Positions 1 through 39,190 of a stretch of DNA of 64,000 nucleotides are shown here, in pieces (the stretch's first letter is position 1; each line of letters begins with the position of its first letter). The position numbers and the translations under genes are program-made. The notes under the pieces are model-generated. The model was given only the letters and a program-made list of their open reading frames with translations, did not search any database and was not told the DNA's origin. Origin of the DNA: Conchocele bisecta (taxonomy: Eukaryota; Mollusca; Bivalvia; Lucinida; Thyasiridae); the NCBI GenBank assembly GCA_029237695.1, contig CM055275.1:90373484-90437483 (forward strand). The letters are read 5' to 3'.

Positions 1-600
1 TTACGGCTTATGAAAATTTTCATGCGAGAGGGAATATGACGGTTTATGAAAATCTTCATAGTGAGAGGGATAGTACTGCTTAAGAAAATTTTCATACTGA
101 GAGGGAATATTACGGCTTATGAAAATTTTCATAGTGAGAGGGAATATGACGGTCTATGAAAATTTTCATAGTGAGAGGGCATATTACTGTCCTTATGAAA
201 ATTTTCATAGTGAGAGGGAATATGACGGTTACGGTTTATGAAAATTTTCATAGTGAGAGGGAATATTACGGCTTATGAAAATTTTCATAGTGAGAGGGAA
301 TATGACGGTCTATGAACATTTTCATAGTGAGAGGGAATATTATGGTCTATGAAAATTTTCATAGTCAGAGGGAATATGACGGTTTATGAAAATGTTCATA
401 GTGAGATCGATTGTACGGCTTATGATAATTTTCATAGTGACAGTACGGTTTATGAAAATTTTCATAATGAATACTGTTTTTCTCAGAACAATGTTATGAA
501 AATTTTCATAGTGAGAGGAAATATGACGGTCTATGAAAATTTTCATAGTGACTTCAATATGTGAGTTGCACTGGTGATTGCTGAGTAATTTTCATAGTCA
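1..600. repeat. 36-bp palindromic satellite array
   Basis: About fifteen head-to-tail units of 36 bp. Each is built on the perfect 16-bp palindrome TATGAAAATTTTCATA followed by a spacer like GTGAGAGGGAATATGACGGT. Units between about 400 and 560 are shortened and diverged. The array runs off the left edge. Short ORFs on both strands are translations of the repeat and not genes. Confidence 0.95.
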
Positions 601-724
601 AGTGCAGTCTAAATTTTTCATAACCCTCCTTATGCATATGGGGTCGCTATTTTGAGCAACTGGATTTGCTCAAACAAAACTGGAGCCTAATTTACTGCAA
701 ATATTTAAAACCTTTTCAATAAAT

Positions 725-961
725 TTCTCAGTAATTTGACATTGGACATGAAGGCCGCATGGGTGTGGTATGGAATGAAAATATGGATGATGATCAGGAA
801 GTATTTGAAGTTTAAAGTCAATCCGACTTTCCGTATATAGAAAATGAGAATCCAACGTGGGACGGACGGACGGACGGACGGTCGGACGAACGGACTGAAG
901 GACGGACGGAATTACGAAAACTATATACCCCTCGACATACTTCGTTTGCCGGGGGTATAAA
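725..961. repeat. Dispersed repeat A, copy 1
   Basis: It shares the landmark GGACATGAAGGCCGCATG and the end GGAATTACGAAAACTATATA with 48785-49004. The two copies align over most of their length. The right part carries a GGAC-rich simple stretch at 868-910. No coding signal was seen. Confidence 0.8.
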
Positions 962-1654
962 TATGACATTTAGTTGTAGACATTCTATTTACTATTAGTA
1001 GTACATCATGAACGTTATATCCCACCCCGTTGTATTTCCGGCGGAGATCAGTCAAACCTAAGGGCACGGTTCGTCTGATGTAATATTCATTGCAAATCAA
1101 GTCAATGGCTTTTCGGTCTACTGATGGATTATACTTTCATCACTGTCCCTGTCCCACTGCTATGTGCTTTTCAGGTTTGATGAGCGACACATTTACTAAA
1201 TATTATTGCATGACTGCCGTTGTTCGACACAGCTCACAGCCGTGTTCAAACATACAGCGCGTGCTGTTTGACAATGGCTGTTGACAATGCTCATTCCGGG
1301 GCCAAGCCAACACCTACGTAATGCATGTGTCTCATGACGTTACCATAACGCGCCATTACGTCACCAGATTAGTTCACAAATGGTCGCACTGCATCACGCG
1401 ACATGTACTGAGGCCCCGGAATGTGTATATGCAAATCAGCTGTTTGAATGAAACGGGTTATCAAAGTAGCGAACATAACTGGTCAAATTACCGTTATTTC
1501 CGACGTAAATGTAACAATAACTGGATGTATGAAGAACGTCTAGCAATGACTATTACATCAGACAGCAACTTACCCGATAATTAGAATGCCAGGCTACAGA
1601 AGTATGAATAACGTCTATCAATGAATAACATCAGACGGCAACATACCTGATAAA
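962..1654. other. No gene recognised; short direct duplication
   Basis: No exon or family motif was found on either strand. A roughly 75-bp direct duplication (about 1531-1604 and 1605-1672) shares the words AGAATGCCAGGCTAC and ACATCAGAC. Confidence 0.5.
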
Positions 1655-1815
1655 TAGAATGCCAGGCTACTGTATTTGAGTTTATCAGGCTCGACTCGGA
1701 ACAACGTTTCCTAGCCTTGCCTGATAAACTTGATATCAAAAATACATTATCCTGTATTCTTCATATGTTATCAGTCAGTACGTATTCGGTCAATACAGGA
1801 CAACTTACCTGATAA
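1655..1815. repeat. Dispersed repeat B, copy next to transporter exon
   Basis: It contains CCTGATAAACTTGATATCAA and a terminal TTACCTGATAAAA. Related blocks occur at 50815-51185 and, more weakly, 32665-32800. It ends about 25 bp downstream (in transcript sense) of the donor of the 1841-1965 exon. The copy at 51185 abuts a donor of the receptor gene. Confidence 0.6.
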
Positions 1816-1840
1816 AAAATATATATGAGTCACGACTTAC

Positions 1841-1965
1841 CACAACAAACAGCGACTAGAAACCTCCCCGCAATGATCATTTCGTATGACCACGCAAGTC
1901 GGCTTGTGTACATCAACACGCATGCGCATACGCCGATTATGTTGTTTAATAACATGCCGTATTTC
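1841..1965 (-). CDS. GLUT exon: loop after TM2 and TM3
   Basis: 125 bp: one leading G completes the Arg codon, then 41 codons and one trailing G. The acceptor is TTTTCCAAATATTTCAG and the donor is TGTG/GTAAGT. The product KYGMLLNNIIGVCACVLMYT ... EMIIAGRFLVAVCCG is typical of GLUT TM2-TM3. Human GLUTs have the same GRF motif and the same exon end after CG. No stop lies in the exon. Confidence 0.9.
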
Positions 1966-3103
1966 CTGAAATATTTGGAAAAGGAGAAAATCACCATCTG
2001 AATCCCACCTAGTCCCTGGAACCTCTGTAGCCGATTTCATCAACATTTCTAGCAAAGTATACTTTAAGGAGTAATCTTTTATTTTCCCTAAAATGCATTA
2101 TTTCATATAGAACTAACCACTGCATATATTTGATGATTAAACGTATGCATAATTATTATAATGAATGTATTACATTATCACAGCCAAAATGGCTGTGATA
2201 ATGTAATAAATTACGTACAATAAAAAATAATAAATTTATCATTAAATTGAAAATTTCTTCCACAAAGTATACTTTGCTAGATAAGTATACTTTGCAATGT
2301 TGGTGAAGGCTACAGAACAACATGGTTCCGCAAGAATACGTTATTGCTCCGCAATCGATCGTTTAGATTTGTTCGAAATTAGCCAAAACCTCAGAATCTC
2401 GTGCTCAGACTATCGGACGGTGCCCACAAGGCGACCCTTTAAACAGCCCTGAGTGAATGTCGTAAAATACGGCATTATATATCAAATGCATGGTATTCAC
2501 CATTACAAACCAGATTAAAATGGTTTGTGGTGAGACATGATGTCAAACTATTTGTATGTACTCGGTAATACTCAATAGAGCAGGCTATACTGTTACAGGA
2601 CAGCCCGATACAAATGCAAACATAAATATGACCATATAGCAGGGAAAAGCATCGTAGTCACAATAGTTTGTTATCTTGTATTTAACCCTTTGAACCCGAA
2701 AGCCCGCTAAAACGGTTTATGCAAACGGTTCAGATCCAGATGAGCCGGCTCGTAGCGAGCCGTCTCATCATTATCTGCACTTTTTGCAAGTAATTTTCAT
2801 ATTTCTTAGAACAAAAACACCCCCTTTTCATCAATAGACTAATCTGAAAATCATTTTGTAACCATTGGCTTGGTCGGAAAATTAGCATATCACAGTCCAT
2901 TTCAGTTACTTAGGGGTGAAAGGGTTAAGGTGGGAATTGGTTCAAAGAACCTTCCATACCCTCATATTTCAGCTAAAAAACGTGTCAAGCCAATGCCCGT
3001 TGGCCCCATGGCCCGTTTGCTTTTCCGAATGTATTATTATTTAAATTAAGGAAGTTATGAGTTATAACCTAGCTAGTTCATTTTCATATCATAGTCACAA
3101 TCG

Positions 3104-3160
<57 letters not shown>

Positions 3161-3976
3161 TATGGAAAACAAAATCGTTCAACAGTGCTAATAAAAATGG
3201 AAAAAAATTAAATCCCAAGCGCTTTCGGCTGTTATGCCTTCATCAGGGGTGTATACATGCTGAATGAGAAGGGCATTGGATCCCGAAGGACATATAATAT
3301 TTTATACACTTTGCATCCTTCGGGATATATATATATAGGTCAACTCTAGGACCAGCGATGTAGGCTCCCCGAAGACAATACAAATCAGAATATATAGGCA
3401 GATAAAAATATATCACAACGAATACCACGTGGAACAAACGCCATCAAAGTCAGTAACAACTATGAGATGACAAAGGACTACATTATCAAGCGATACATGG
3501 TGAATAGGATACCGACTCCGAACGGTCAGTAAGACCTCGGGAGTGTTAAACTAAGCTAAAACACGCCTTCCATTACACTGACGAAAATGCGTGCACAAGC
3601 GGGCCGAAAAAAGTATGCAAGCGAGAGTACTTTGCCAACCATAGAATACCTTCCAAAGAAATCCGCCGACTGTTCGGCGGAAAACCCGCGCTCCATGCAG
3701 TACCTGCCAAAGATGTCCGAACACCAGCCCGCTGAAAGCCCGCCCAGTATAGTATACCTTCCAATGCAAGAAGTCCGCTCTCCACCCTGCTGAAACCCCA
3801 CCCACCATAGAATACCTTCCAAAGAAGTCCGCCAACCACCCGGCGGAAAGCCCACCCACCATCCCGCCAACTGCGAATATCGCCACGGTCACCTAGAAGA
3901 GTAACGTTATACGGTCATCGCTCGCCGACTCGCCCGTAAGGTCATAGTATGTCGTGTTGATGAATGACTCGATGTG
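1841..3976 (-). CDS. SLC2/GLUT-family sugar transporter, two internal exons
   Basis: This is a facilitative hexose transporter of the major facilitator superfamily, acting in the plasma membrane. The visible exons are 3816-3976 and 1841-1965. The first reads FINTTYYDLTGES, then the helix-2 signature VTVAIFAVGGMVGGLSAGWL and ADFFG. The split codon AG+G gives the Arg of the conserved FGR loop, and the second exon continues KYGMLLNNI to GRFLVAVCCG. Exon breaks after FGR and after the CG of the third helix match the vertebrate GLUT gene structure. An in-frame TAG at 3893-3895 replaces the residue before VTVAIF, so the copy may be a pseudogene, a null allele or an error. The TM1 exon was not found; exons after helix 3 lie left of the window. 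Confidence 0.88.
2026..2314. mobile_element. MITE family 1, copy 1
   Basis: The ends are inverted, TGTAGCCGATTTCA at the left and TGGTGAAGGCTACA at the right. The centre is a near-perfect palindrome built on CAGCCAAAATGGCTG (about 2168-2206). The AGTATACTTTG words near each end are also shared with the other copies. Confidence 0.85.
2688..2932. mobile_element. MITE family 2, copy 1
   Basis: It runs from AACCCTTTGAACCC to GGGGTGAAAGGGTTAA. Internally it carries GAGCCGGCTCGTAGCGAGCC and the word AACAAAAACACCCCCTT. Further full copies are at 58231-58478 (opposite orientation) and 60432-60698. Fragments of the GAGCCGGCTC core lie near 30870, 45520, 55535, 57670, 57795 and 59590. Confidence 0.8.
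2936..3085. repeat. Dispersed repeat C, copy 1
   Basis: It has GGGAATTGG, CCTTCCA and CAATG.CCGTTGGCCC, then TAGCTAGTTCATT. It is shared with 28973-29140 and partly with 43508-43580. Nothing coding was seen. Confidence 0.65.
3103..3158. repeat. (AT)n microsatellite
   Basis: More than twenty uninterrupted AT dinucleotides follow CACATATAT. The true length is likely uncertain in any assembly. Confidence 0.95.
3159..3559. other. Non-coding stretch with a hairpin
   Basis: No exon was recognised. An inverted repeat, ATCCCGAAGGA near 3279 against TCCTTCGGGAT near 3317, could form a hairpin. A small open frame on the minus strand is not supported. Confidence 0.5.
3560..3815 (-). repeat. Minisatellite derived from the GLUT exon end and its splice donor
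   Basis: The 3' end of the exon at 3816-3976 (GGGCTTTCCGCC ... GACTTCTTTGGAAG) and its donor GTATTC are repeated downstream. Units are about 53-58 bp, with donor-like sites at roughly 3646, 3700, 3753 and 3811. Units have diverged, but most keep the AAG/GTA or CAG/GTA junction. This explains the overlapping minus-strand ORFs here, which are not separate proteins. Confidence 0.85.
3816..3976 (-). CDS. GLUT exon: extracellular loop 1 and TM2, with in-frame TAG
   Basis: 161 bp, phase 0 at the start (CAC ATC GAG) and two bases (AG) at the end. The acceptor is TCTATATTTCCAG and the donor is AAG/GTATTC. Twenty-seven codons precede TAG at 3893-3895, and the frame then continues with VTVAIFAVGG. CTTCTAG just before GTG could act as a shorter acceptor that skips the stop. 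That would drop the 27 codons and is an alternative to pseudogenisation. Confidence 0.85.
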
Positions 3977-5170
3977 CTGGAAATATAGAGAAGCGCTGAT
4001 TGGTGAGCGATGCTTGAATGTCATATACATGTATATTAAACGAGTTTATTGATTTCATTAGAAACTTCGCTGTCTTGTTTGTAAATGATTTGATGCTGAA
4101 AATATATAGGATGTTACATGGATGATTAATGGAGGTGTTTATGACGAGTTTAACAAGTTCATTAGAAACGTTGCTATCCTGTTCATGAATGCTTTCAGGT
4201 GCTGGAAATATAGAGACTAGTAGGTTAGTGCCGTGAATGGGAAACAATATCTGGCAAGGCTTAGGAAATGGGATGTGCGAGGCTCTGCCGAGTACATAGA
4301 GAACAGTATGTTAGTGCCGTGAATGAGTAAAAATATATGGCAAGGCTTAGGAAACGGGATGTGCGAGGCTCTGCAGAGTACATAGAGAACGGTAGGTTAG
4401 TGCCGTGAATGGAAAAAATATCTGGCAAGGCTTAGGAAACGGGATGGGCGAGCGAGGCTCTGCCGAGTACATGGAGATCAGTAGGTTAGTGCCGTGAATG
4501 GGAAAAAATGTCTGCCAAGGCTTAGGAAACGGGATGGGCGAGGCTCTGGCGAGCATATCCCGTTTCCGTGCCGCGCCAGATATTATTCCCATTCACGGCA
4601 CTAACCTACTATTCCATTCATTCCGTCAACACATACACATAGCTTTAAAATGCAATAAAATAACCACGATCACCGCATATATTCATACACAGTGATTAGG
4701 TCGTATTTACAGGATATCAAAAGTGTTTCACGGCACCGTGTTTCACGGCACATACGCACTGTGTTTCACGGCACCGTGTTTCACGGCACATACACACTGT
4801 GTTGAAAGGATATCAACAATGTTTCACGGCACCGTGTTTCACGGCACATACGCACTGTGTTGACGGGATATCAACAATGTTTCACGGCACCGTGTTTCAC
4901 GGCACATACGCACTGTGTTGACGGGATAAATAGCCGATATTGGATGATGATTTACTAAATATCTTAAACTAGTTTAATGATTTCATAAGACAATCCACGG
5001 TGATACTGATGAATGGTTTCATGTGCTGAAAGTATAGACGAGTTTAACTGGGTTATTTCTATTAAACCAGTTTACTGATTCCATGAAAGAATCGACATAT
5101 ATGTAGGACACGGTGGTCATTGTGGGTCGGGTTCATGACTGATTGGATGTGCTGGAAACATAGAAATTCT
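3977..5170. repeat. Complex tandem region upstream of the GLUT exon
   Basis: Three repeat types are interleaved. Diverged copies of the exon acceptor edge (GTGCTGGAAATATAGAG beside a GAATGACTC-like word) lie near 4080, 4190, 5015 and 5140. Units of about 87 bp carrying GGCAAGGCTTAGGAAA fill 4240-4560, ending in an inverted piece (CCATTCACGGCACTAACCTA near 4590). A GTTTCACGGCACCGTG array fills 4715-4930. No additional transporter exon was found. Confidence 0.75.
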
Positions 5171-5229
5171 AGAAACTTTAAAAACGTGTTTACTGATTTC
5201 GTAAGAAACCATGGTCAAAATCAGTCATG

Positions 5230-5256
5230 TTAATAATAATAATAATAATAATAATT
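5230..5256. repeat. (AAT)n microsatellite
   Basis: A run of TAA/AAT triplets between two unrelated stretches. The surrounding sequence to 5418 holds no recognised gene. Confidence 0.9.
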
Positions 5257-5417
5257 AAAGTATTTGCAGATTTTTCATATCCTGTTATCTTCTGGAAAAT
5301 AAATAATTGGAAAATACACACTTGGGCCTGTTATCTATTTGAAAACAACAAACTAGTATAAACTAAGCAACCAGATACTAGTGCAGTGTCGGCTGACATA
5401 GGGTAAACCAGGATACT

Positions 5418-5656
5418 TGTAGCCTATTTCACCAACATTGCAAACTAAACTTATGATGCCAAAAACACTTTGAGGGAACAATTGTCGATAGCCACTTTGG
5501 CTGTGATAATGTAATACATTCAGTATAATAATTCTGTCTGCATACTTTTAATTATCAAATATATGCAGTCGTTCGTTCTATATGACATAATTCATTTCGG
5601 GAAAAATAAATGATTCCTCCCATAAATATACTTCGCAATTTTGATGAAATCGGCTA
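5418..5656. mobile_element. MITE family 1, copy 2 (eroded)
   Basis: The left end is TGTAGCCTATTTCACCAAC and the right end is TTGATGAAATCGGCTA. Only the right half of the central palindrome remains clear (GGCTGTGATAATGTAAT). Confidence 0.75.
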
Positions 5657-5988
5657 TCGGTGTATTTGCCATGGATAGTTTTGTCGACAATAATAAGTTG
5701 TCGCAGTTAATCCTATACAATTAAATACTAGAAACATGAAGATTCGTGCTTACAGTATCGGACTGCATACGGTTAACTACGACAGTTCAGTCTCCGTGAA
5801 TTAAATAGATTAACTCCCCTATGTTGCTCTCTCGTCATTTCGAAGATCTGCATATTGTATATTAATAGTTACCACTGTTCGGTCGCTATCTGTTGTGTTC
5901 GCGGACTCGTCATTATTATGACATCCAGCTACGTCATTCTCCGACTCTGTGTGGTTTTTAAGATCGGGCTTGAACGCTAAAATAATTT

Positions 5989-6287
5989 CCGATTTCATCA
6001 ACATTGCAAAGTATACTTTTCTAGAAAAGTATACTTTGAGGGAGAAATTTTCAATTTTAGGATAAATTTATTAATTTTTATTATACTGAATTTATTACAT
6101 TATCACAGCCATTTTGGCTGTGATAATGTAATAAATTCAGTATAATTCTGCATACTTGTAATCATCATATATATGCAGTAGTTAGTTCTATATGAAATAA
6201 TGCATTTCAGGAAAAATAAATGATTGCTCCATCAAAGTATTCTTTGCTAGAAAAGTATACTTTGCAATGTTGGTGAAATCGGCTACA
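5989..6287. mobile_element. MITE family 1, copy 3
   Basis: It has CCGATTTCATCAACATTGC at the left and GCAATGTTGGTGAAATCGGC at the right. The central palindrome around CAGCCATTTTGGCTG (about 6095-6133) is intact. Its left edge truncates a short open frame of no known family. Confidence 0.85.
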
Positions 6288-6630
6288 GAATGAGGGCTAA
6301 TCCCGAAACGTGACGTCAATCCCAGAACGGGGGCCAATCTCACAATGGCCGAAAAGGCAGGACAATTGTACACATTGGTATTTTGCAAGCTACGACAAGT
6401 AAGGCATACCTGTAATTAACTTCATTACTAAATACTTCACGGTCGGTAATGTATACGTTTCACCTCGATGACAAAAATGACGTCGTTTTTAACCTGGACG
6501 CATGCGGCCAGAGCATGACGTTACGTCACTAACTTTGACGTCATTCAAGCTTGAAATCAAAACCCAGAACGTGAATTGAATTGGCCCCCGTTCTTGGAGA
6601 AATTGACCCCCGTTCTGGGATAAGTGCTTA
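6288..6630. mobile_element. MITE with CCCAGAACGGGGG inverted ends
   Basis: The left end reads GGCTAATCCCGAAACGTGAC and CCCAGAACGGGGGCCAAT. The right end carries the complement, TTGGCCCCCGTTCTTGG and CCCGTTCTGGGAT. It was inserted directly against MITE family 1 copy 3. It contains CRE-like TGACGTCA words, probably incidental. Confidence 0.65.
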
Positions 6631-7365
6631 ATTTTGATATGATTCGTTTTCATTTACCTCCGAGGATAATGTATGTTCATGATCGCAAAGCACCCATGTG
6701 TGTCTTGAAGTAGCTATATGCAAGTTTCACAGTGGAACCTCCCTATACCGGATGTCCCCAGGGTGTCCGGCGGTGTAGAGAGGTGTGACTGTAGTTACAT
6801 TTACATTGTCGTGTATACATGTACCCGTCTACACCCACCCAACTTCTTAAGTTTGGCCATACTGTTAGGAAAAAAAACTGTGTATGCTATTTGACACTAT
6901 TTACCGGTGAAGTAATATGAAAATTGATCAGGGATATGTGCACGTTTTATATCCGTTCATGAATGTACACTTTATAACTTTAATTATAGTATGTTATTCT
7001 TATTTTTAGTTCGGTGGCGGAAATTTAAAGCTATGCTAAAAACTTCCTCAACCATTCGCAGACATAAATTTGCTTGTTTTACCGGATACGGAGGTACGTT
7101 TTTAGCCATCTGGGTGGACGCTTAACGCATAGCCTTACCTTGTAACCTATAATACATGTAAAATTAAATAAATAAATTTATTTCATGAATTTTTGTTTAA
7201 ACTTCATTTAGTTTACAACGATTACAAACAAGCGCGATAACACTTATGAAAATGTTTTCGTTGGCACAGATGGATGTGAGGGGCGGTCATTAATGTGGGA
7301 GGAAACCGGAGTATCACTAGTCCTATCCGGCGACCACCATACCATCTCACAAACTGCCCATGCCG
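6631..7365. other. No gene recognised; pogo-like terminal repeat at 6722-6784
   Basis: A block starting CAGTGGAACCTCC with CCCCAGGGTGTCCGGCG resembles the paired pogo/Tigger-type ends at 33831-33893 and 56304-56381. The remainder shows no exon. Confidence 0.5.
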
Positions 7366-7800
7366 AGAATCGAACCCGGGGTCGCATTGGTGAACAGTGG
7401 GGGAAAATCACTATACCCGGTGAACAGTGGGGGAAATATAAGTAGTATATGGGAGTCAAAAATGCGAATTGCAATTCCTGGAGCTCAGGATTGCAATTCG
7501 CGTTCCCATTAATTGCAATTGGACCGCAATCGGACTGCAATCATGTGACTGCGGTCCAAATAGTTGGTTGCGGAATTGTAATACTTATAGCGCAGTTAGC
7601 GCTGCGCTCCGCTTTTAATTGCAATTTACGCTCCTTTTTTTCTTTAAACTGCGAAAGAATGACCGCTTTACGCTGCGCTCTGCGGTCAAACCAGCCGACC
7701 GCTCTGCTTGACCAATGCGGCAATACAATCGAAATAGTTGATAAACGTATCCGTGTTCCAATCCAAAATTTTATCCCATCTATTTAATTCAAAGTGACTA
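7366..7800. repeat. TTGCAATT-rich word repeat with tRNA-like B box
   Basis: GAATCGAACCCGGGGTCGC (about 7370) is a reverse-strand B-box-like tRNA remnant. It is followed by GCGAATTGCAATTC, AATTGGACCGCAATCGGACT and related palindromic words. A matching block lies at 22290-22530 in opposite order. The open frames here come from repetitive words and are not accepted as genes. Confidence 0.6.
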
Positions 7801-8429
7801 GAAAGTCAGCGGTATTGGTGATCTGTTTTTTTGGTGCACAAATATAAATCGGCGGGTTATTGCGAACAAACAGTGAAACATTGACCTTGACAATTTCTTG
7901 GACACAAAAAAATGTCGTCACTTCCGTTCCGAATATCAAGAACAAATTAATAGACACCACCATGCTCACAATATATTTATTTTCATATAAAATTTAATTA
8001 TAATGTGTGGTCTACGGTATAATATGGCAAAACTAAGCATCAATTTTGCGCTTTGTTTCCGTTTTCGTCGGTATCAAATTAAGTTTTCCTATTCTTTTAA
8101 CATTATTTCGAACGATCCTATAGTCGACATGACAATTTCTGAGATCAACACAATTTTTCATAATGTCTTTCAATTTCAAGCTGCAAGGAGACTGTGAATT
8201 GCATATTAACCATAATAACATGGTGAACATATTGATAATAATTTTAAAAGAAAAGCATATTTTAATTTTCGAAACCTGATCATAAAAACAAAAATTATTT
8301 TGGAATTAGATTTCTATTACTGCAAACGTTCTGTCCTGGCTGTTGATTTGTATTGGCCCGAATCAAATTTTGTGAAGATAATATTTATTCCGGTGATAGC
8401 CATTTCTTTAAAATAAAACGGCTTACTTG
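7801..8429. other. No gene recognised
   Basis: AT-rich sequence. Overlapping short open frames on both strands lack family motifs, and no convincing splice-site pair was seen. Confidence 0.5.
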
Positions 8430-8545
8430 TGTCACAGAATGAGAAAGATAAATAACGGCCCGGAATCGAACCAGGGACCTCATGTTTACCGTACCATTCC
8501 CATGGCTCTACCGAGCAAGCTAACAAGGCACAGCTCATACACACT
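8430..8545 (-). mobile_element. tRNA-derived SINE, copy 1
   Basis: On the minus strand an A-box-like TTAGCTTGCTCGGTAGAGC and a B box GGTTCGATTCC stand in tRNA order, followed by TTTCTCATTCTGTGAC. The copy at 9118-9212 is in the same orientation with the same head and tail. The anticodon arm is degenerate, so this is not a functional tRNA. Confidence 0.8.
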
Positions 8546-8770
8546 TAATCCCCATAGTCAGTTGCGTACTTTGACATTCTTCTCCGCCAAATTGAAATTC
8601 GTCCTCGAATTCCATGTTTAATTTTTGTCTCCGAATTCCATATGTTTGGGTACAATTTTGGGATTATTTATCAGTCGCGGTCCTTCGTTGGGCAACAATT
8701 GTCACTGTGTAGAAATATGTCCACCCAGAATTCCATATTTGTGGAACATTTCTTAATCAGTCACGACTCC

Positions 8771-9108
8771 ACGTTGAGAGTAGTTGCGGCAAGTAACTGC
8801 ATAATTCTAAATTATCGTCCGTACCCTGAGTTACGGTGCTCCATAGGTTTTTACTGCAGAGTACCGAATCGGATCTCATTCGCGCTTGAGCTGTTAATTG
8901 TGACATATTTTTCTGTACTTATTACACAGAAATGAACAAGTATAATACTGACATACTGAAAAATACAGAAAATATGTCGCAATTAACAGTTGAAGTGCAA
9001 ATCAGATGTGATTTGGTACTTTGCAGGGGAAACCTACGGAGAGCACCATAACTCTCGGTACGGACGATGCGGGAGTATTCTGCAGAGTTACTTCCCGCAA
9101 CTACGTTG
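8771..9108. repeat. Large inverted repeat, arms about 150 bp
   Basis: The left arm (GAGAGTAGTTGCGGCAAGTA ... CTGTTAATTGTGACATATTT, to about 8925) is the reverse complement, with mismatches, of the right arm (AATATGTCGCAATTAACAG ... GAGTTACTTCCCGCAACTA). The spacer is about 30 bp. It is probably a palindromic MITE. Confidence 0.8.
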
Positions 9109-9117
9109 GACGCTAAA

Positions 9118-9212
9118 TGACACAGGGTGAGAAAGATGCGCACCAGCCCGGAATCGAACCGGGGATCTCTGGTTTACCACACCATCGCTCTACCTACTGA
9201 GCAAACCGGGCA
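9118..9212 (-). mobile_element. tRNA-derived SINE, copy 2
   Basis: On the minus strand: TTTGCTCAGTAGGTAGAGCG (A box), CCGGTTCGATTCCGGGC (B box and arm), tail TTTCTCACCCTGTGTCA. It matches the copy at 8430-8545 and lies just outside a large inverted repeat. Confidence 0.85.
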
Positions 9213-9269
9213 CAAATACACACTTATTCACAATAGTGATCACTTCATTCAACCGAAAATTCACAAGCT

Positions 9270-9852
9270 AGAAAGTTATGCGAAATTATTACAGCCAACG
9301 TCACAGATTATGCTCTTGGCGACATTAGCGGACACAAATGTGTCCATCAATTTGATCAAATAAACAACGGAATCTGACAGATAACACTACGACGGTGCAT
9401 GGAAACATCATTATTATGGTACTTGGAATCAAAATGGTGGATATTAAGATCAATATGTGAGGCGCTGACAGAACCTTTAACATTTGTTATCACGATAGCA
9501 GCTACAGGGATTGTTGGACGCATTTATTTAGAGAAACGAGAGATTACAACCCGCATTGGATAATATACAATGTGACATTTTGTTCTAACGTACACCAACA
9601 TAGAGGATTAAATTTGCGACAATGTTGGATTGTGGATTTTGTGGACAGGTGACAGATATCGGAGCTGAATAAGAACCGACAGACGTGATTCTGAATATGC
9701 GTGCTTGGTCTGTGGTTATTCTTCCAGATCATGATATGCATGTTTTAATTTCATGTCATGTCAAAGCAGCACTATTGAACATAATGAATAACTTTAATAT
9801 TCTAAATAGAATTAAAGTTCATTCATCGTCTGATGTGTAACTGATGAATTAA
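9270..9852. repeat. Dispersed repeat D, copy 1
   Basis: It aligns with 43950-44637. Shared landmarks are CTGACAGATAACACT, AAGAACCGACAGAC, TTTCATGTCATGTCAAAGCA-like text and the end GGTAAGTTAC. The two copies differ by substitutions and small indels. The family could be a non-autonomous transposon; no coding potential was seen. Confidence 0.8.
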
Positions 9853-9894
9853 GGTAAGTTACTTGTATATGACAACTTTTGCCTCACTAGTGTG

Positions 9895-10460
9895 TATGCC
9901 CCACCACGATAGTGGAGGGGGCATTTAGTGTTACCCTTGTCCGTTCTTCCGTCCGTCACCAACCTAGTAGCTCGTAAAACTTTTAAACCGTAATAGCTAC
10001 AGACCTGAAACATAGTACATGTATGTTTGATTCGACCCCATGGTCATGGATTATCTCCCACTTTTCAAGTTAGAATTTTCCAATGTTGGCTTTTAGCTCG
10101 TAAAACTGTTAAACCCTAATAGCTACACACCTGAAACTTGGTATGTAGCTTCCTTATGATGAGTAGATTTGCAAAGTTTATTTTTATTCGACCCCTGAGT
10201 CATGGATTATCTCCCCATTTTTTTATAAGAATTTGAAAATTTTGCCTTGCATCTCGTAAAACTTTTGTAATAGCTACAGCACTGAAATTTGATATGTAGC
10301 TTCCTTATGATGAGTAGATGCGGAAAGTTTATTTCGATTTTTGTTTCGAACCCCGTGTCATGGATTATCTCTCCCTTTTGGACACTGGAATTTTGCCTTG
10401 TTTACTATCAAAGCGATATGTGGGGTATCCGTGTTCTATGAACACATTTTCTAGCTTAGT
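9895..10460. repeat. Tandem block with AGCTCGTAAAAC units
   Basis: Three diverged units carry CTCGTAAAACTTTTAAACC, TAATAGCTACA, CCTGAAA and CATGGATTATCTCCC, at about 9968, 10094 and 10252. The preceding CCACCACGATAGTGGAGGGG is a small palindrome. Confidence 0.75.
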
Positions 10461-13652: not shown

Positions 13653-16600
13653 TTTTTTTTATTTTCTCACACAAACATGTACAAACAAGACATATTACTA
13701 GTAACATGCATGTGCATAATTACATTCCATTACATATTTCTACATTACTAAGTACATTGTAAATATATCTTACACATGTTATTACCTGTTTGTATATGTA
13801 TATGTTTGAAAAACATTTATGAAGAAGAAGCAAACAAAATATAGTTATCAATTAAAAATAGAGAGAAAAAACGAAAATTAAAAAAAATAAACCCATAAAA
13901 AAAAAGAAGATTTTAATTATATAAGTACGATAAGTATGAGCAGCAAGATCATGTGTTCACAATATTTTTGTAAATAGTCTAAGGGAAAGAATGCTAGAAG
14001 AAAAAAGGTTAGTCTAGCGGTAAGCCGTTCCATTTTCTATTGTGTATTTCAGCTTTGTTTCTATTTACTGCTATTTGATGCTCAAGCTCTTTAGTTTGTT
14101 TTAAATATTTCTTAAAGGCTGGGAAAGTCGGTTCAGTATTTCTTAACTTACATCCATAAATAAAGTACTTTCCTTGTATAATACACAAGTTCAAGAATAT
14201 ATTGTCTGTTTCATACTGCCCTAAACTTATTGATTGCCAATCCAATGTAAAATTTATACCGTTATCATGTAAAAACGTGCTTAGCAGAGACCAAAATTGA
14301 TGACTATTTTGGCATTCCCAAAATAAGTGCTTGTTTGTTTCTGGTGCCATACTGCATAAATCGCATAAATTAGAATTTACAATTCTGCATTTATATAAAT
14401 AATCCTTCGTGGCAATAATTTTCATCAAGCATTTGTACTGGAAATTCCTAAGTTTTGAACATATAGTGCTTCTAAAATACTGTGAATTTACAATTTTCCA
14501 ATTAATAGTTGTTTCTGAAAACTCTGCATTCCATTTAGTTTGAGCTCTGAAAACAACACTATTAATTTTACTAAGGAAAATTGTATATAACATTTTATTA
14601 CATTGTTTGGAAGATTGCACTTTTCTTAAAAGGGGTGACTTAATATTTTGGATGTTTATTGTCTCATTCCTTAGTCGTGCACGCCAAGCTTGTGGTATAC
14701 TGGATATAAGTTTAAAATAGTTTAGGTAATCATTATTACTAACATTATATAATTGTTTTATATTTGTAAAGTCATAAAAGGTTTCAGTTCGATAATCGTA
14801 TATATGTTCTATATATTGTATTCCCCGTTCATTCCAATCTTTGTAATAAAAAGTATTGACATTACTTTTTAATTTAGAATTGTTCCACATGATTTGCTTC
14901 GAAATGTTCTCTGGATTTTCAGAATAATTAAGTTGGCACATGCTTCAAGTATATTTGATAAAAAAACATTTTTTATTAATATTTTTGCATCGAATTCGTG
15001 GAAGTTTCCTTCAAATATATTTGTACCACCAAATGTATGTAAATAATTAGTATACACTATTTTCTATTGCCCATCGTTTGTATCATTTGTAAGACGTTTA
15101 ACCCAACTTGCTTTGAAAGAATTTATGAAACATACTAGATCGATCATTTTCAGCCAGCCATTTTCATAATTTTGCACAATGACTTTTCTGCTGATTTTAT
15201 CTGGTTTGGAATCCCATAGAAAGTCAAACATCATGTGTGTAATTTGTTTTATAACATCCTCTCCAGGAGTATCTAAAACCGTCAATGGAAATATTAGTTT
15301 TGGAAATGCGAAGCTTTTGAGAACAGTTATTTTACCCATAGTTGTCAGTTTTCTACGTTTCCATCTGTCTAAACATTGTTTCAATTCATTTACTTTTGGT
15401 AGTAAGTTTATATTATGTATTCTATTTTTTTCATTACAAAAGTTTATACCTAGTGTTTTTGCTACGTCGGCAGTCCATAAAAAATGTTTGTCTTCACAGA
15501 AAGAGAGTGTAGTGTTTTTTAAAGAACCTGTCTTAAAAAGTATCGATTTTGAATAGTTTAATCGCAAGCCTGAAATATGTCCACAATTATCAATGGTAGA
15601 AATTAGGGTTTCTAACGATTCTTTTGACCCATCTAAGCAAAAAGTGGCATCGTCTGCGAACATTGTGTTTTTTATTTCTTCTTGATTTATTATTATTCCT
15701 TTTATCATGCTATTATTTCGGACACTATGTGATAGTATTTCTATTGCTATAATAAACCAAAATGGTGACAAAGGACAGCCCTGTCTTACGCCCCTACCTA
15801 AGCCGAAAAAATCTGTAAGATAGCCGTTGTTTGTTACACAACTAGATATGTTATGATAAAATACTTCAACCCATTTTATTAGACTGGGACCAAAATTTAA
15901 GAATCTTAAAACTTTCATAATATATTCATGACTAACACTATCAAAGGCTTTTTCAAAATCAGCAAAACATAACAACCCTGGAATTTCTTTTTCATTAACA
16001 TGGTCAATAGCTTCAAATAATAATCTTATGTTTTCTCCAATATATCTGCCTTTAATAAAGCCCGTTTGAGAGGAATCTATCAACTTGTTTAATACATCCT
16101 TTATTCGATTAGCAATAGCCTTTGTAGCAATTTTATAATCAATGTTCAGTAAACTTATTGGCCTCCAATTTGCGAGATTGGTACTGTCTTTACCTTTTTT
16201 GGGAATTAAATTTATTATGCTTTGTTTTTGTAGGGTTGTTAATTCACCAATTTCGAGTGAATCATTTAGAGACTTAACAAGGTATGTTTTGATGTCGTTC
16301 CAAAACAATTTGTAGAATTCAGTAGTTATTCCATCTGAACCAGGACTTTTATTATTATTCATCTCCTTTAATGCATTAAAGCATTCACATTCAGATAACA
16401 CTCCTTCACATTTTATTTTTTCTTCTTCATTCAATTTAGTGTTATATTCATCTGGAAAGAAATTTATGTCTGATTCAATACATTCTCTTTTCTTATAAAG
16501 ATTTTGATAAAAGCGTTTCGGTTCTTGTAAAATGTGCTGTTGATCAGTTATCTTTTGTCCATTTACAGTTAATTCTGATATAATTTTTCTATCGAATTTT

Positions 16601-17736
16601 CGTTTTTCCAGATCTGCAAAGAATTTTGTATTTTTTCCCCCTCCTTCCACCCAATTTACTTTTGATCGAAAAATAAAACCCTCTGCCCGTTTTTTATAAA
16701 TGTCTTCTAATCGTGTTTTATGGTTATTTATTTCATCTATTGCTTCTGGAGTATGTACATTTGCTTTAACCATTTCATCGATTTTTTCTTGTAACTTAAC
16801 CTCTTCTAATTTAATTTTTCTGTTTCGCCTGGCACAATATTTTATTAACTCGTTTCTTCTTGTTCCTTTAATTAATTCCCATAAAATATTAGAATTAGCC
16901 TCTTTATTGACTTCTGCAATTTCGGAAATGCTGTTCTTTATATTAATTTTGTATTCGTTGTCCAAAAGTACAGAATTGTTGAGTTTAAAGTATCCCGGTC
17001 CTCTTGGTTGGTTATTAATATTTATATCCAGTTTTACAAGTGCATGGTCTGTCTTGATGCTGCTTTTTATCTCACATGACTTAATTGTATTAACAATATT
17101 ATCTGAAACTAAAAAATAAAAATAGTCTAATCTGCATAGAACACGTGGTGTATAATTTGAATGCCATGTAAATCGCTGTTGGTTTCTGTGTTTAATTCTC
17201 CATATGTCAGACAAATCATATTTTTCTATAATATTATTGATTGTTTCCCGATTAACTTTGTTTGTTGTAATTAAACCTCCCTTTTTATCCAATTCGTAGT
17301 TTAAAGTGACATTAAAATCACCACCAATAACCATTCTTGCGTTTTCATGTTTGGATATAAAGTCGTCTAGTTGTTTAAAAAAAGTGTTTCCTTCTGAGTT
17401 TGGCCCACATATATTTAACAGGAGTATGTCTTTACTGTTTATTTCTACGTTTATTGCTTGGATTCTACCAGGGATAACGTCTATAATATCATGTATGGTA
17501 TATGCCTGTTTTGAATTAAAAAGTATTCCTACCCCTTCACTATTACTACTGTTACCACTAAATATTGCATCTGATCCCCATTCCGTTTCCCATTCCTTTG
17601 CGGTATTATATGTTGTATGAGTTTCTTGTAAAAAAAAATGTCATATTCATTATCCTTAAGCCATTGAAACATTTGTGTCCTTTTTACTTTTGCTCCTAGC
17701 CCTCTAACATTTAAAGTACATATGCTAAGATCCATT
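13653..17736 (-). mobile_element. LINE retrotransposon, non-functional copy
   Basis: An endonuclease and reverse transcriptase frame is followed by about 350 bp of 3' UTR ending in an A-rich tail (AATAAAAAAAAAC, minus strand). A 13-bp match TTTTTATTATAGT lies at both flanks (13640-13652 and 17737-17749) and is the probable target-site duplication. The 5' edge falls at the presumed ATG of the second frame, so any first frame and 5' UTR are missing. It inserted beside a repeat with GGCCATGGCCATCTAG, also seen at 11625. Confidence 0.85.
14009..17735 (-). pseudogene. LINE ORF2: endonuclease and reverse transcriptase, three lesions
   Basis: The intact protein would nick DNA and copy the element's RNA by target-primed reverse transcription. 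In order, the frame shows an endonuclease start (ICTLNVRGLGAKVKRTQMF), GGDFNVTLN and CRLDYF; RT motifs LIPKKGKDS, NWRPISLLN, GFIKGRYIGENIR, FADFEKAFDSVSHEY, GVRQGCPLSP and MFADDATF; and a C-terminal CDLC ... HLFWEC cysteine-histidine motif. The lesions are a one-base loss in a T run (nine T) near 17630, a TAG at 15064-15066, and a one-base shift near 14940. Otherwise the frame is open for long stretches, so the copy is fairly young. It looks L1/Tx1-like; the clade is not assigned. Confidence 0.92.
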
Positions 17737-17749: not shown

Positions 17750-20025
17750 ATGATGCCTAACAATGCATTTTATTCTAGTAAACTTAAGTGTTGTATTGCT
17801 GCTCGGATGTTTAGTATAAACGAAGAAATAGATATGTAAGCAAAAGCGAGAAATAAGGAGAAAAACATAAACATGCATTACATGAAGTAAATGAAAATTC
17901 TCATTCAAAAAAACCTCCATTGCATAAGACGATCTTTCAATTTTACATATGCTAAGATGTGTGAAGTGAAAGGTTACACCACAAAATACATATATTTCCA
18001 TAGTATATACAAAAACTATTATGTGTTGCATGTATGCATCAACAACCGACACTGACCCGGCCATTAATTGCCACCTGTCAACTCTTATCATATTATACAT
18101 TTCCTTCTCTATAAATAATAAATAGTTAGTTTACACACACACACATATATATATGGTTGTTCAACAATTTACAAATGTAATGCCCATGACCGCAATGGTG
18201 ATTATAATTATATTGTCATTCGTAAATGCTATGTAAATATACAATGTGCGAGCAGTAGATATGAGCTGTGATAAAAACGGTTGAGATAAATAGCTTCCAG
18301 TGAGCATAGGAAATAACGATATAAATGGAATCCCGTCTGTGAAAAAGGACCATACGACACAAACAACGGACATAGACCCAGATCAGCCTGCGCATCCGCA
18401 CAGTCTGATCAGTGTCTACGCCATTGATAATTCGGTCACTAAAGTATTATTGAGGACGCCAGGAAATCAATTGAATTGCGTGTATATACAGATATATGTT
18501 ACAAATGCCGTAAGGTCCACTCTCCCCACCGGTTTCCTAAATAACACATGTGTAATAAATGTAGGATAAAAACTACCCATATCTCCACTTGACTGCTAGT
18601 GCATTTCTAACCCAGCTTGTCGTCCCCTGCAATCATGGATTGTAGGAGGAGACCTAGGTAGACATACGAGTCTGTATCGCTTTGATACACACAATGGTCC
18701 TCTCTCCGTGTTACGAATGCGAAAGTTCGAGAGAACCATAACAATTGTGTTCACGTATGTGCCTTGCATTGAGAAAAAACACCTCTTCAATAACGGACTG
18801 TGTGTTGTGGCTAGCATGATCTTAAATATTGAGTCATGTTCGTTAATATAAAGAAAATATTTATCTATATGTAGATATAAATAGTTTATACCCCGATCGG
18901 ACCGCATGTATTTACTGCCAGATCAGAGTCGACGCTAGGATTAGGTAATTTCCTCATCACGAATCACATACGTGCTAAGTAAAAACTTATAGTGCTTTAT
19001 TAGTATCAAGCTCCTACTTACATACATGTACTTTGAATGATCCATTAACTACAATGAATGCACAGTTGTGTACACAGCCACTGAATGTGGACCCGAGTTA
19101 AGGACTATGGTACTCTGTACTCTATACCATTAGGTATAGGTAGAAACAGACATATTCTGCAAATATCACATACATGCATGCAACGATATGCAATAAAGTG
19201 CGATATGCGGAACAGCCACCAGCCACCAGCCTAGCACTCGATGAGACTGCGCTGCTGCGCCGGCTAATCCGGTGCTATGCTGGCTGAGACTGGTTGTGAC
19301 TGGCTGCTCATACGTAGTGCATTTGTTGCTATTTTACTCACATGTATATTCGTGATATACCCAAGTGAATGGCTGAATGTGGCATGAAGACACAAAATAT
19401 CATAGTTTGTCATGCCTTAGAATAGTAGTGTGCAATTGCGCTAACCAGTCAATATACATGAGCCCGATTAAACGAAAATCGAGATTTACCTTTTAACATT
19501 ATCATTTCAATACCATTTATTTTGAAGCCTTTTACCTTTTATGAAAAGAGACAAACTAGGTACCAGTATATGCTATATATACTTGGTTCTTGTAGGCTGT
19601 AAACTGAAAGTATCAATTTAATTTAAATTAGTTATAATTGTCTACATTAGAACAATACTAATGTATTGGTACACAAGTGATATGGACAACATATTTGAAC
19701 TTACCGATAAAACATACTGCTTCCCCAATATTTCACCATGGTAACATACCTGTGTCTAGGCTATCATATATTATCAAATCGTTTAGTGGCGAGTATATAC
19801 ATGCACTACGATGTCTGTAAAGGATGCGGTCACTGTACACAATTGTTGATGCATACATACTTGTAATGAGTAAGTGAAAACAAGCACATACATATACATT
19901 ACTGTTCCTACATACACAAGCAAATCCACATGTCGCATAGCTGGCGGTGCCAATGTTTATTATATTAATCTATATTTATTATATTAATCTAGCCATCTAG
20001 TTATTATGGCATGCGATTTGATCAC
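17750..20025. other. No gene recognised
   Basis: AT-rich sequence with a short AC/AT microsatellite near 18130. A GC-richer patch at 19210-19310 is made of GCTGGCTGAGACTGG-like words and carries AGCACTCGATGAG, similar to the minisatellite unit starting at 20026. Minus-strand frames at 17711-18100 and 18596-18907 have no family motif. Confidence 0.5.
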
Positions 20026-21668
20026 TCGGCCATCGCACCATGACTAGCTTAGCACATGATCAGTCGGCCATCGCACCAGGACTAGTTTAGCACTTGATCA
20101 GTAAGCCATCGCACCAGGACTAGTTTAAAACTTGATCAGTCGGCCATCGCACCAGGACTAGTTTAGAACTTGATCGGTCGGCCATCGCACCAGGACTAGT
20201 ATAGCACTTGATCAGTCGGCCATCGCACCAGGACTAGCTTAGAACTTGATTAGTCGGCCACTGCTCCAGGACTAGTTTACAACTTGATCAGTCGACCATC
20301 GCACCAGGAATAGCTTAGCCCTTGATGAGTCGGCCATCGCACCGGGATTAGTTTAGCCCTAGATCAGTCGGCCATCGCACCAGGACTAGTTTAGAACTTG
20401 ATCTGTCGGCCATCGCACCAAGACTAGTATAGCACTTGATCAGTCGGCCATCGCATCAGGACTAGTTTAGAACTCGATCAGTCGGCCATCACTTCAGGAC
20501 TAGCTTAGAACTTGATTAGTCGGCCACTGCTCCAGGACTAGTTTACAACTTGATCAGTCGACCATCGCACCTGGAATAGCTTAGCCCTTGATGAGTCGGC
20601 CATCGCACCGGGATTAGTTTAGCCCTAGATCAGTCGGCCATCGCACCAGGACTAGTTTAGAACTTGATCTGTCGGCCATCGCACAAAGACTAGTATAGCC
20701 CTTGATCAGTCGGCCATCGCATCAGGACTAGTTTAGAACTCGATCAGTCGGCCATCACTTCAGGACTAGCTTAGAACTTGATTAGTCGGCCACTGCTCCA
20801 GGACTAGTTTACAACTTGATCAGTCGACCATCGCACCAGGAATAGCTTAGCCCTTGATCAGTCGGCCATCGCACCGGGACTAGTTTAGCCCTTGATGAGT
20901 CGGCCATCGCACCAGGATTAGTATAGCACTCGATCTGTCGGCCATCGCACCAAGACTAGTTTAGAACTTGATCAGTCGGCCATCGCACCAGGACTAGTTC
21001 AGAACTTGATCAGTCGACCATCGCACCAGGAATAGTTTAGCCCTTGATTAGTCGGCCATCGCACTGAGACTAGTTTAGCCCTTGATCAGTCGGCCATCGC
21101 ACCAGGACTAGAATAGCAATCGATCAGTCGGCCATCGCACCAGGACTAGTTTAGAACTTGATCAGTCGGCCATCGCACCAGGACTAGTTTAGAACTTGAT
21201 CAGTCGACCATCGCACCAGGAATAGTTTAGCCCTTGATCAGTCGGCCATCGCACCGAGAATAGTTTAGCCCTTGATTAGTCGGCCATCGCACCAGTACTA
21301 GTATAGCACTCGATCAGTCGGCCATCGCACCAGGACTAGTTTAGAGCTTGATCAGTCGGCCATCGCAACACGACTAGTTTAGAACTTGATCAGTCGGCCA
21401 TCGCACCAAGACTAGTATAGCACTTGATCAATCGGCCATCGCATCAGGACTAGTTTAGCACTTGATCAGTCGGCCGTCGCACCTGGACTGGTATAGCACT
21501 CGATCAGTCGGCCATCGCACCATGACTAGTTTAGAACTTGATCAGTCGGCCATCGCACCACGACTAGTTTATAACTTGATCAGTCGGCCATCGCACTAAG
21601 ACTAGTATAGCACTTGATCAGTCGGCCATCGCACCAGGACTAGTTTAGCACTTGATCAGTCGGCCACG
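20026..21668. repeat. 38-bp minisatellite with 266-bp higher-order period
   Basis: About 43 units of 38 bp, consensus near CGGCCATCGCACCAGGACTA plus GTTTAGCACTTGATCAGT. Variant units (CACTGCTCCAGG; GACCATCGCACC; CCCTAGATCAG) recur in order at 20261, 20527 and 20793, exactly 266 bp apart (seven units). So the left part evolved by multi-unit duplication. TGATCA palindromes recur in nearly every unit. Confidence 0.95.
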
Positions 21669-38662: not shown

Positions 38663-39190
38663 TTACAAGCTGGATAGCAAGAAGGAGACGAACCCGCCTA
38701 TCAGCCCAGGCAGTGCGGCAGCCGCTCTTCCAGCTAATTTAGCCAGGAGACTGGCGAGGAATTTTAGCTGCTTTTGTACTCACTCCTTGGCTGCACCGGC
38801 TGACTTGAGTGCTGGCGCGGGCGCGGTCGCCGCACCGCCGCACCGCCGCACCGCCGCACCGCCGCACCGCCGCACCGCCGCACCGCCGCACCGCCGCACC
38901 GCCGCACCGCCGCACCGCCGCACCGCCGCACCGCCGCACCGCCGCACCGCCGCACCGCCGCACCGCCGCACCGCCGCACCGCCGCACCGCCGCACCGCCG
39001 CACCGCCGCACCGCCGCACCGCCACGCCGCACCGCCGCACCGCCGCACCGCCGCACCGCCGCACCGCCGCACCGCCGCACCGCCGCACCGCCGCACATAC
39101 CTAGGGTCGATATTGTCATGCCGAGCGCTGTGAGGATGCTTACTATTGTGACGCCCTGCTCTATGAACAGCGTGCGAAGACGCTTCCTAG
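38663..39190 (-). pseudogene. Hydrophobic element protein interrupted by an 8-bp repeat array
   Basis: The upstream part reads LFIEQGVTIVSILTALGM, a likely membrane segment. After the (CACCGCCG)n array the frame gives APALKSAGAAKE, a TGA, then QLKFLASLLAKLAGRAAAAL and GLIGGFVSFLLSSL before TAA at 38663. The array appears to have expanded within a Gly/Ala/Pro-type linker between two hydrophobic regions. Continuity of frame through the array is not certain because unit loss near 39021 shifts it. Function unknown. Confidence 0.55.
38828..39096. repeat. (CACCGCCG)n array, about 33 units
   Basis: Almost perfect 8-bp repeat, interrupted once near 39021 where CACCGCCACGCCG replaces two units (three bases lost). 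The minus strand is G-rich (CGGCGGTG)n. Because 8 is not a multiple of 3, all three frames stay open on each strand, which generates the overlapping ORFs. Confidence 0.97.

Follow-up and report, generated by a model that had tools for sequence, protein, structure and literature searches.

Tandem copies of an exon edge and its splice donor beside a GLUT exon in the bivalve Conchocele bisecta

Two related GLUT loci on one contig

The window analyzed here is a stretch of 64,000 nucleotides (C11:90373484-90437483) from the 1.89-Gb genome assembly of the bivalve Conchocele bisecta, which has 17 large contigs (C1 measures 225.6 Mb and C17 64.7 Mb; C18 measures 65 kb). Close to its start, the minus strand of the window carries parts of a GLUT gene, as follows.

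3816 to 3976, minus strand: GLUT exon 3, 161 nt, ending GGAAG with the donor GT directly behind it
1841 to 1965, minus strand: GLUT exon 4 of the window copy, itself open; tttcag precedes its start GAAATACGGC, and gtaagt follows its end TTGTTGTG
5281 to 5291, minus strand: remnant of exon 2, AAGATAACAGG; the rest and the donor are deleted (about 86 bp compared with the sister gene)
1072 to 1082, minus strand: exon 5 gap, where about 660 bp containing the exon 5 of the sister gene are missing

A sister locus was found 2.43 Mb away at C11:92804826-92805361, in the opposite orientation and with 90% identity over 541 query bases. The surroundings of the two loci align in long blocks of 89-93% identity, some of them at 82-88%. 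Within exon 3, 7 of the 161 bases differ (2 of these differences are silent), and an in-frame TAG at 3893-3895 of the window, ahead of the array described below, is TCG in the sister. A search with human GLUT1 of the entire window, extended by 18.5 kb on the side of its start, recovered exons 3 and 4 only, and a Pfam scan of the three minus-strand frames of window positions 8-9999, with stops read through, returned no match. Retaining only these two exons plus the exon 2 remnant, the window copy is a decayed partial duplicate, and this copy of the gene is dead.

The sister gene contains nine GLUT segments in order, covering GLUT1 residues 6-482 in stop-free matched stretches, and this exon-ordered homology to class I GLUT over the entire protein makes it a member of the SLC2A/GLUT family. 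Longer protein matches at this gene contain stops at four places, which we took to lie outside exons because these matches run past the stop-free segments in the same frame. Exon 3 encodes the TM1-TM2 segment of GLUT proteins, and its product in the sister gene matches GLUT5, 1, 9 and 3 chains in the PDB (best E value, 9.8e-7), which confirms the GLUT identity assigned to the exon in an earlier note on this DNA. The best named protein matches of the sister GLUT are from bivalves (Mercenaria, 64%; Potamilus, 63%; Mactra, 62%; Mya, 65%; Ruditapes, 60%).

Several further features were observed on C11 and elsewhere. Scattered additional copies of the last GLUT exons lie at C11:92690634, 93165278, 93168329 and 94115699. 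On the minus strand of the window, positions 14009-17640 hold open frames of 311 and 858 amino acids which, by eye, read like the endonuclease and reverse transcriptase of a non-LTR retrotransposon. A 38-bp tandem array of 43 copies occupies window positions 20018-21666, and an array of CGCCGCAC in 34 copies occupies positions 38828-39096. Contig C895, with a length of at least 1.9 Mb, contains several long uninterrupted translation-factor-like frames and is possibly a bacterial symbiont or a contaminant in the assembly.

Copies of both edges of exon 3

The 3' edge of exon 3 is repeated in tandem, together with its splice donor, in the intron downstream of it.

3758 to 3815, minus strand: array unit 1, 58 nt; intron start gtattct, ATGG and a copy of the exon 3' edge, with TTGGAAG before donor 2
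3704 to 3757, minus strand: array unit 2, 54 nt, with TTGGCAG before donor 3
3650 to 3703, minus strand: array unit 3, 54 nt, with TTGGAAG before donor 4
3639 to 3649, minus strand: end of the array, gtattctATGG followed by intron; ATGGT, common to this end and the exon seed, is the likely join

With the exon edge counted in, TRF reported a tandem repeat of period 54 in 4.1 copies at 3638-3862. Every unit spans the exon-intron boundary, with about 47 nt of exon edge and about 7 nt of intron start (ATGG being counted as exon), and carries splice signals, the GT being preceded by AAG or CAG at all four donors in the window and the sister alike. In a comparison of the exon edge with 416 nt of the intron, the best local score was 62, whereas none of 500 dinucleotide shuffles exceeded 29. 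The claim of the earlier note that the exon edge and its donor recur downstream, in units with donor-like sites, is thus borne out by TRF, by the shuffle test and by the same array in the sister. Its details need correction, however: the ladder does consist of four donors, but these include the authentic one, so that there are three extra copies rather than about four. Of the donor positions it gave on the minus strand (3815, 3753, 3700 and 3646), the first is correct, whereas the other GTs begin at 3757, 3703 and 3649, at a spacing of 58, 54 and 54 nt, unit 1 being 4 nt longer than the others.

Donors at offsets of 0, 58, 112 and 166 nt are present in the window and the sister alike, and each window unit is 90-95% identical to the unit of the same rank in the sister. 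Since the same array is found in a paralogue 2.4 Mb away (C11:92.80 Mb) with the same offsets, it must be older than the duplication and is no assembly accident of a single place. Unit number (4 versus 4 donors) and unit order have been kept since then.

Within each C11 copy, the exon edge proved to be the nearest relative of every unit. In the window, identities were 81, 71 and 81% between the exon and the units but 69, 69 and 61% among the units; the corresponding values in the sister were 81, 76 and 81% versus 74, 68 and 60%. These identities form a star centered on the exon, with a narrow margin for unit 2 (71 versus 69% in the window and 76 versus 74% in the sister). We therefore conclude that the copies came from the exon. 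The alignment is the opposite of one in which the units resemble each other but not the exon, and it favors the direction from exon to satellite that had been proposed. Where the array ends, the intron sequence is gtattctATGGTTGG, and that of the exon seed is GGGATGGTGGG; ATGGT occurs in both, suggesting slippage or template switching that involved short direct repeats.

Could the units instead represent a satellite or mobile repeat that existed beforehand and was inserted beside the exon or captured by it? The intron is indeed full of tandem and interspersed repeats, and a segment just upstream of the exon (window positions ∼4011-4065) is dispersed in the genome, drawing 40 of the 46 genome matches, on other contigs. 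Beyond base 166, however, the query, which there comprises most of the exon and the donor array, matched only the window and the sister. Moreover, the exon part, which encodes a conserved portion of GLUT, resembles every unit more closely than any two units resemble one another, and the unit of a comparable array on contig C15 (see below) was found only at two C15 genes (46 of 46 matches in a genome search that scored the best candidates only). We consider such an insertion or capture extremely improbable.

The 5' edge of exon 3, with its acceptor, has also been copied upstream, which the earlier note had missed, so that both edges of this one exon are duplicated.

3935 to 3993, minus strand: authentic acceptor edge of exon 3, tctctatatttccag followed by the exon start CACATC...
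4071 to 4109, minus strand: degenerate acceptor-edge copy, 32/41 matching
4177 to 4216, minus strand: acceptor-edge copy, 34/40 matching
5007 to 5038, minus strand: acceptor-edge copy, 27/32 matching
5115 to 5164, minus strand: acceptor-edge copy, 42/50 matching

The copies in the window scored 44-68, compared to a maximum of 32 in 10 mononucleotide shuffles, and the exon part of the acceptor edge alone scored 42, compared to a maximum of 33 in 300 dinucleotide shuffles. Besides the authentic edge, the window has four copies and the sister eight. Four of these eight follow one another every 106 nt, apart from a single gap of 1675 nt, and are 92-97% identical over a 60-nt edge. The other four match those of the window in order and sequence, and the 106-nt copies therefore either arose after the duplication or were lost from the window. 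By our own reading, CG is all that the join of the C11 acceptor array has in common with the exon, no more than expected by chance. Window positions 4011-4065, among the acceptor-edge copies, are taken up by a short repeat that is dispersed in the genome. Positions 4210-4614 hold an 86-bp tandem repeat containing TTCACGGCACTAACCTACT, present also in inverted form at 4570-4614, which occurs several times around the sister gene and looks like a mobile element with internal repeats.

Reading frame and donor choice

The downstream donors shift the junction by 58, 112 and 166 nt, each of which leaves a remainder of 1 on division by 3. Upon conceptual splicing of the sister gene, the first donor joins exon 3 to exons 4 and 5 as continuous GLUT sequence, whereas donors 2 to 4 put exons 4 and 5 out of frame. 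Use of a downstream donor would thus not insert repeat-encoded residues after TM2, as had been supposed, because all three shifts change the frame; in the window copy, moreover, the TAG precedes the array. Among 40 aligned relatives (the 40 best of 120), none has an insert at the joint of exons 3 and 4. All four C11 donors score alike and low (0.6-1.0 bits with a rough human matrix), and since they are equally poor, nothing in the donor itself explains a preference for the first. As the other donors of the array break the frame, we infer from the frame and from the annotated proteins of relatives that splicing of the sister gene stays with the exon-proximal donor.

It might nevertheless be argued that the array works as a module of alternative donors by which residues are added after TM2, given its four donor-like sites and a frame which stays open from the end of exon 3 through the entire array in both C11 copies. 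In the C15 genes, too, splicing from 2 of 23 and 2 of 18 downstream donors would keep exon 4 in frame and leave the product open. Yet with the remaining 21 of 23 and 16 of 18, a stop is encountered or exon 4 is thrown out of frame. On C11, the frameshift of exons 4 and 5 by all three downstream donors and the lack of an insert in the aligned relatives argue against such a function, and the window copy has its stop before the array and retains little of exon 2 and nothing of exon 5. A working module therefore appears highly unlikely.

Exon-edge copies elsewhere in the genome and in other animals

Searching the genome with exon 3 gave six matches: the two on C11, another two on C15 with identities of 49 and 45%, and two partial ones that fall in an array downstream of one C15 exon. 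The C15 genes (C15a and C15b, located at C15:22.47/22.58 Mb) form a near-identical inverted pair ∼109 kb apart, with flanks 95.8 and 96.8% identical; their lineage and that of C11 are 43% identical over 148 residues. At the donor edge of their exon 3, a pattern count yielded 24 and 19 donors, respectively, with the authentic one included. The units of these arrays measure 71 and 83 nt, the latter, by our own reading, comprising 71 nt of exon and 12 nt of intron and the former being 12 nt shorter, and units of regular length are on average 95.1 and 93.7% alike. At the acceptor edge of exon 8, the pair has 36 versus 6 copies, the authentic one counted, and the extra copies are 99.2 and 98.3% alike; exon 8 and an intronic 20-mer of these genes share ACCAGTCCAT. 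Copy-number instability is suggested for the C15 arrays only (36 versus 6 and 24 versus 19), the window array being 4 versus 4.

To define edge copies at other exons, exon matches plus 40 nt were compared with up to 5 kb on either side (shorter flanks for a third GLUT lineage and for elongation-factor-like genes). The E value threshold was 0.001 for C11, C15 and the elongation-factor-like genes and 0.01 for the edge copies of the sister and for the third lineage. The test covers exons found by protein match, in a small sample chosen around GLUT, and protein matches inside the arrays (starting at GLUT1 residues 64-70) were dropped before counting on C11 and C15. Edge copies were detected at 2 of 9 exons of the C11 sister, 2 of 7 of C15a, 2 of 6 of C15b and 1 of 14 in three elongation-factor-like genes (pieces of 5-7.5 kb). 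In the third GLUT lineage, none was detected at four exons within 8 kb at an E value of ≤0.01. With C15b left out, 5 of the 34 exons, belonging to 3 of the 6 genes, are affected.

In the C11 sister, the second affected exon (GLUT1 residues 290-357) has two partial copies upstream, one spanning the acceptor and the other starting within the exon; its 3' edge recurs once ∼0.85 kb downstream. The nearer upstream copy is also present in two further C11 duplicates, which belong to the scattered copies of the last GLUT exons. On C4 (67671094-67671354), one exon of an elongation-factor-like gene has an acceptor-edge copy ∼0.4 kb and a shorter exon-derived copy ∼0.8 kb upstream. Three kinds of match were set aside: one near exon 5 of both C15a and C15b (query positions 262-299 of 299), where the protein match had run past the exon end, a 20-nt match in the third lineage (E value, 0.005) and a 27-nt match near sister exon 2 (E value, 0.004). 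In the edge search at an E value of 0.01, the ends of sister exon 5 and C15 exon 4 were a few bases off.

Since edge copies occur at other exons as well, the conserved exon 3 boundary is not unique, and the special status given to it in the earlier note does not hold; the third lineage even lacks copies at its exon 3. The intron after FGR lies at the same codon in the C11, C15 and third lineages (in the last as judged by its gtgagt donor), and because this lineage has no array, the intron must be older than the arrays. No new intron position is seen.

That the donor edge of the homologous exon is affected in two lineages might point to a sequence-driven hot spot, in which the G-rich sequence coding for GGMxGG would have caused independent hits. 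Independence is supported by breakpoints and unit lengths that differ at homologous positions (54-58 versus 71/83 nt) between such diverged genes. G4Hunter scores over the first 6 kb of the window peak inside the array, and those at both C15 loci peak in or at the end of their arrays, but at the sister locus the peak is a poly-G run elsewhere. Furthermore, exon 3 of the third lineage is free of copies, and edges that are not obviously G-rich, such as the acceptor of C15 exon 8, have been amplified even more. As 3' edges are copied at 2 of 9 exons on C11 (and at 1 of 7 on C15), the chance of a positional coincidence is near 2 in 9, and the shared position is compatible with coincidence. A hot spot is therefore unlikely, if less so than the capture of a repeat or a working module, and a G-quadruplex driver is unproven.

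We thus favor, with a probability of about 85% for the explanation as a whole, the reading that the array is a "mirage," a minisatellite-like tandem duplication across an exon-intron boundary. Short direct repeats in exon and intron would have allowed the slip or template switch that produced the first duplication, and further duplications would have led to four donors. The copies would then have drifted as intron while the exon stayed under selection, leaving an array that is probably functionless, with the exon-proximal donor presumably kept in the sister gene. The same process has, in this reading, acted at several exon edges of the genome, both long ago and recently, and we read these cases as tandem duplications based on short homology that have recurred at exon edges of a bivalve genome. 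Such duplications would be tolerated because splicing from the first donor apparently persists.

Structures of this kind are already known, contrary to the earlier note, which knew of no common case and which was right about the direction of copying but wrong about the coding consequence. Tandem duplications of exon-intron boundaries have been described under the name of mirages in lancelets, in Adh3 and the globins BflGb6 and BflGb9 (PMC3087553), with troponin C and PGBD5 added in a further paper (PMC3902484). According to the relevant passages of both papers, lancelet mirages lie at 5' or 3' edges, have units of 10-160 bp, many with splice signals, and are unstable in length, and RT-PCR suggested that regular splicing of the globins continues despite them. 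Mirages have also been proposed as a route to new introns; the cases named in these passages are all from lancelets (PMC3087553, PMC3902484). The array described here shares with them the minisatellite-like tandem units across an exon-intron boundary and the splice signals. It differs in that it is found in a bivalve, that one exon has both edges duplicated, that the instance in the window is fossil, lying in a gene copy that has decayed, and that regular splicing, suggested by RT-PCR for lancelet globins, is here only inferred.

Going by the title of a 1995 article by Turri et al., the human IFI6/G1P3 (6-16) gene reportedly carries a minisatellite with multiple splice donor sites. There, as here, the transcript would offer several donors, but the downstream donors on C11 are predicted to break the frame. 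In human segmental duplications, the passages available from PMC2812944 report 27 intron modifications from tandem repeats at exon-intron boundaries, likewise in recently duplicated genes, but no novel intron is seen in our case. Intron gain by tandem genomic duplication (the Rogers model as cited in PMC3087553; see also the corresponding part of PMC4974935) similarly involves tandem duplication carrying splice signals, whereas here an existing boundary has been copied into an existing intron without a new position. Intronic minisatellites are reported for earthworm metallothionein and abalone TSSK1, in passages that do not describe exon-edge copies. In the parts of the open-licence full-text literature that were consulted, no mollusc mirage was recognized.

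More tentatively, and at somewhat less than even odds, the cases assembled here may reflect a continuing genome-wide process that turns splice-site-bearing exon edges into minisatellites of all ages, from units 60-80% alike in the window to ∼35 units 99% alike, and that has hit one GLUT boundary independently in two lineages. Such a process, acting outside lancelets, would continually provide competing splice sites and additional intron length. The value of the present case lies in its occurrence outside lancelets, its two-sidedness at one exon and the age series within one genome: old and young examples in near-identical gene pairs would allow the process to be dated and the joins to be compared. 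The C15 exon 3 array, with 24 similar donors in a row, only the first and two others of which keep exon 4 in frame without a stop, is a natural test of splice-site choice.
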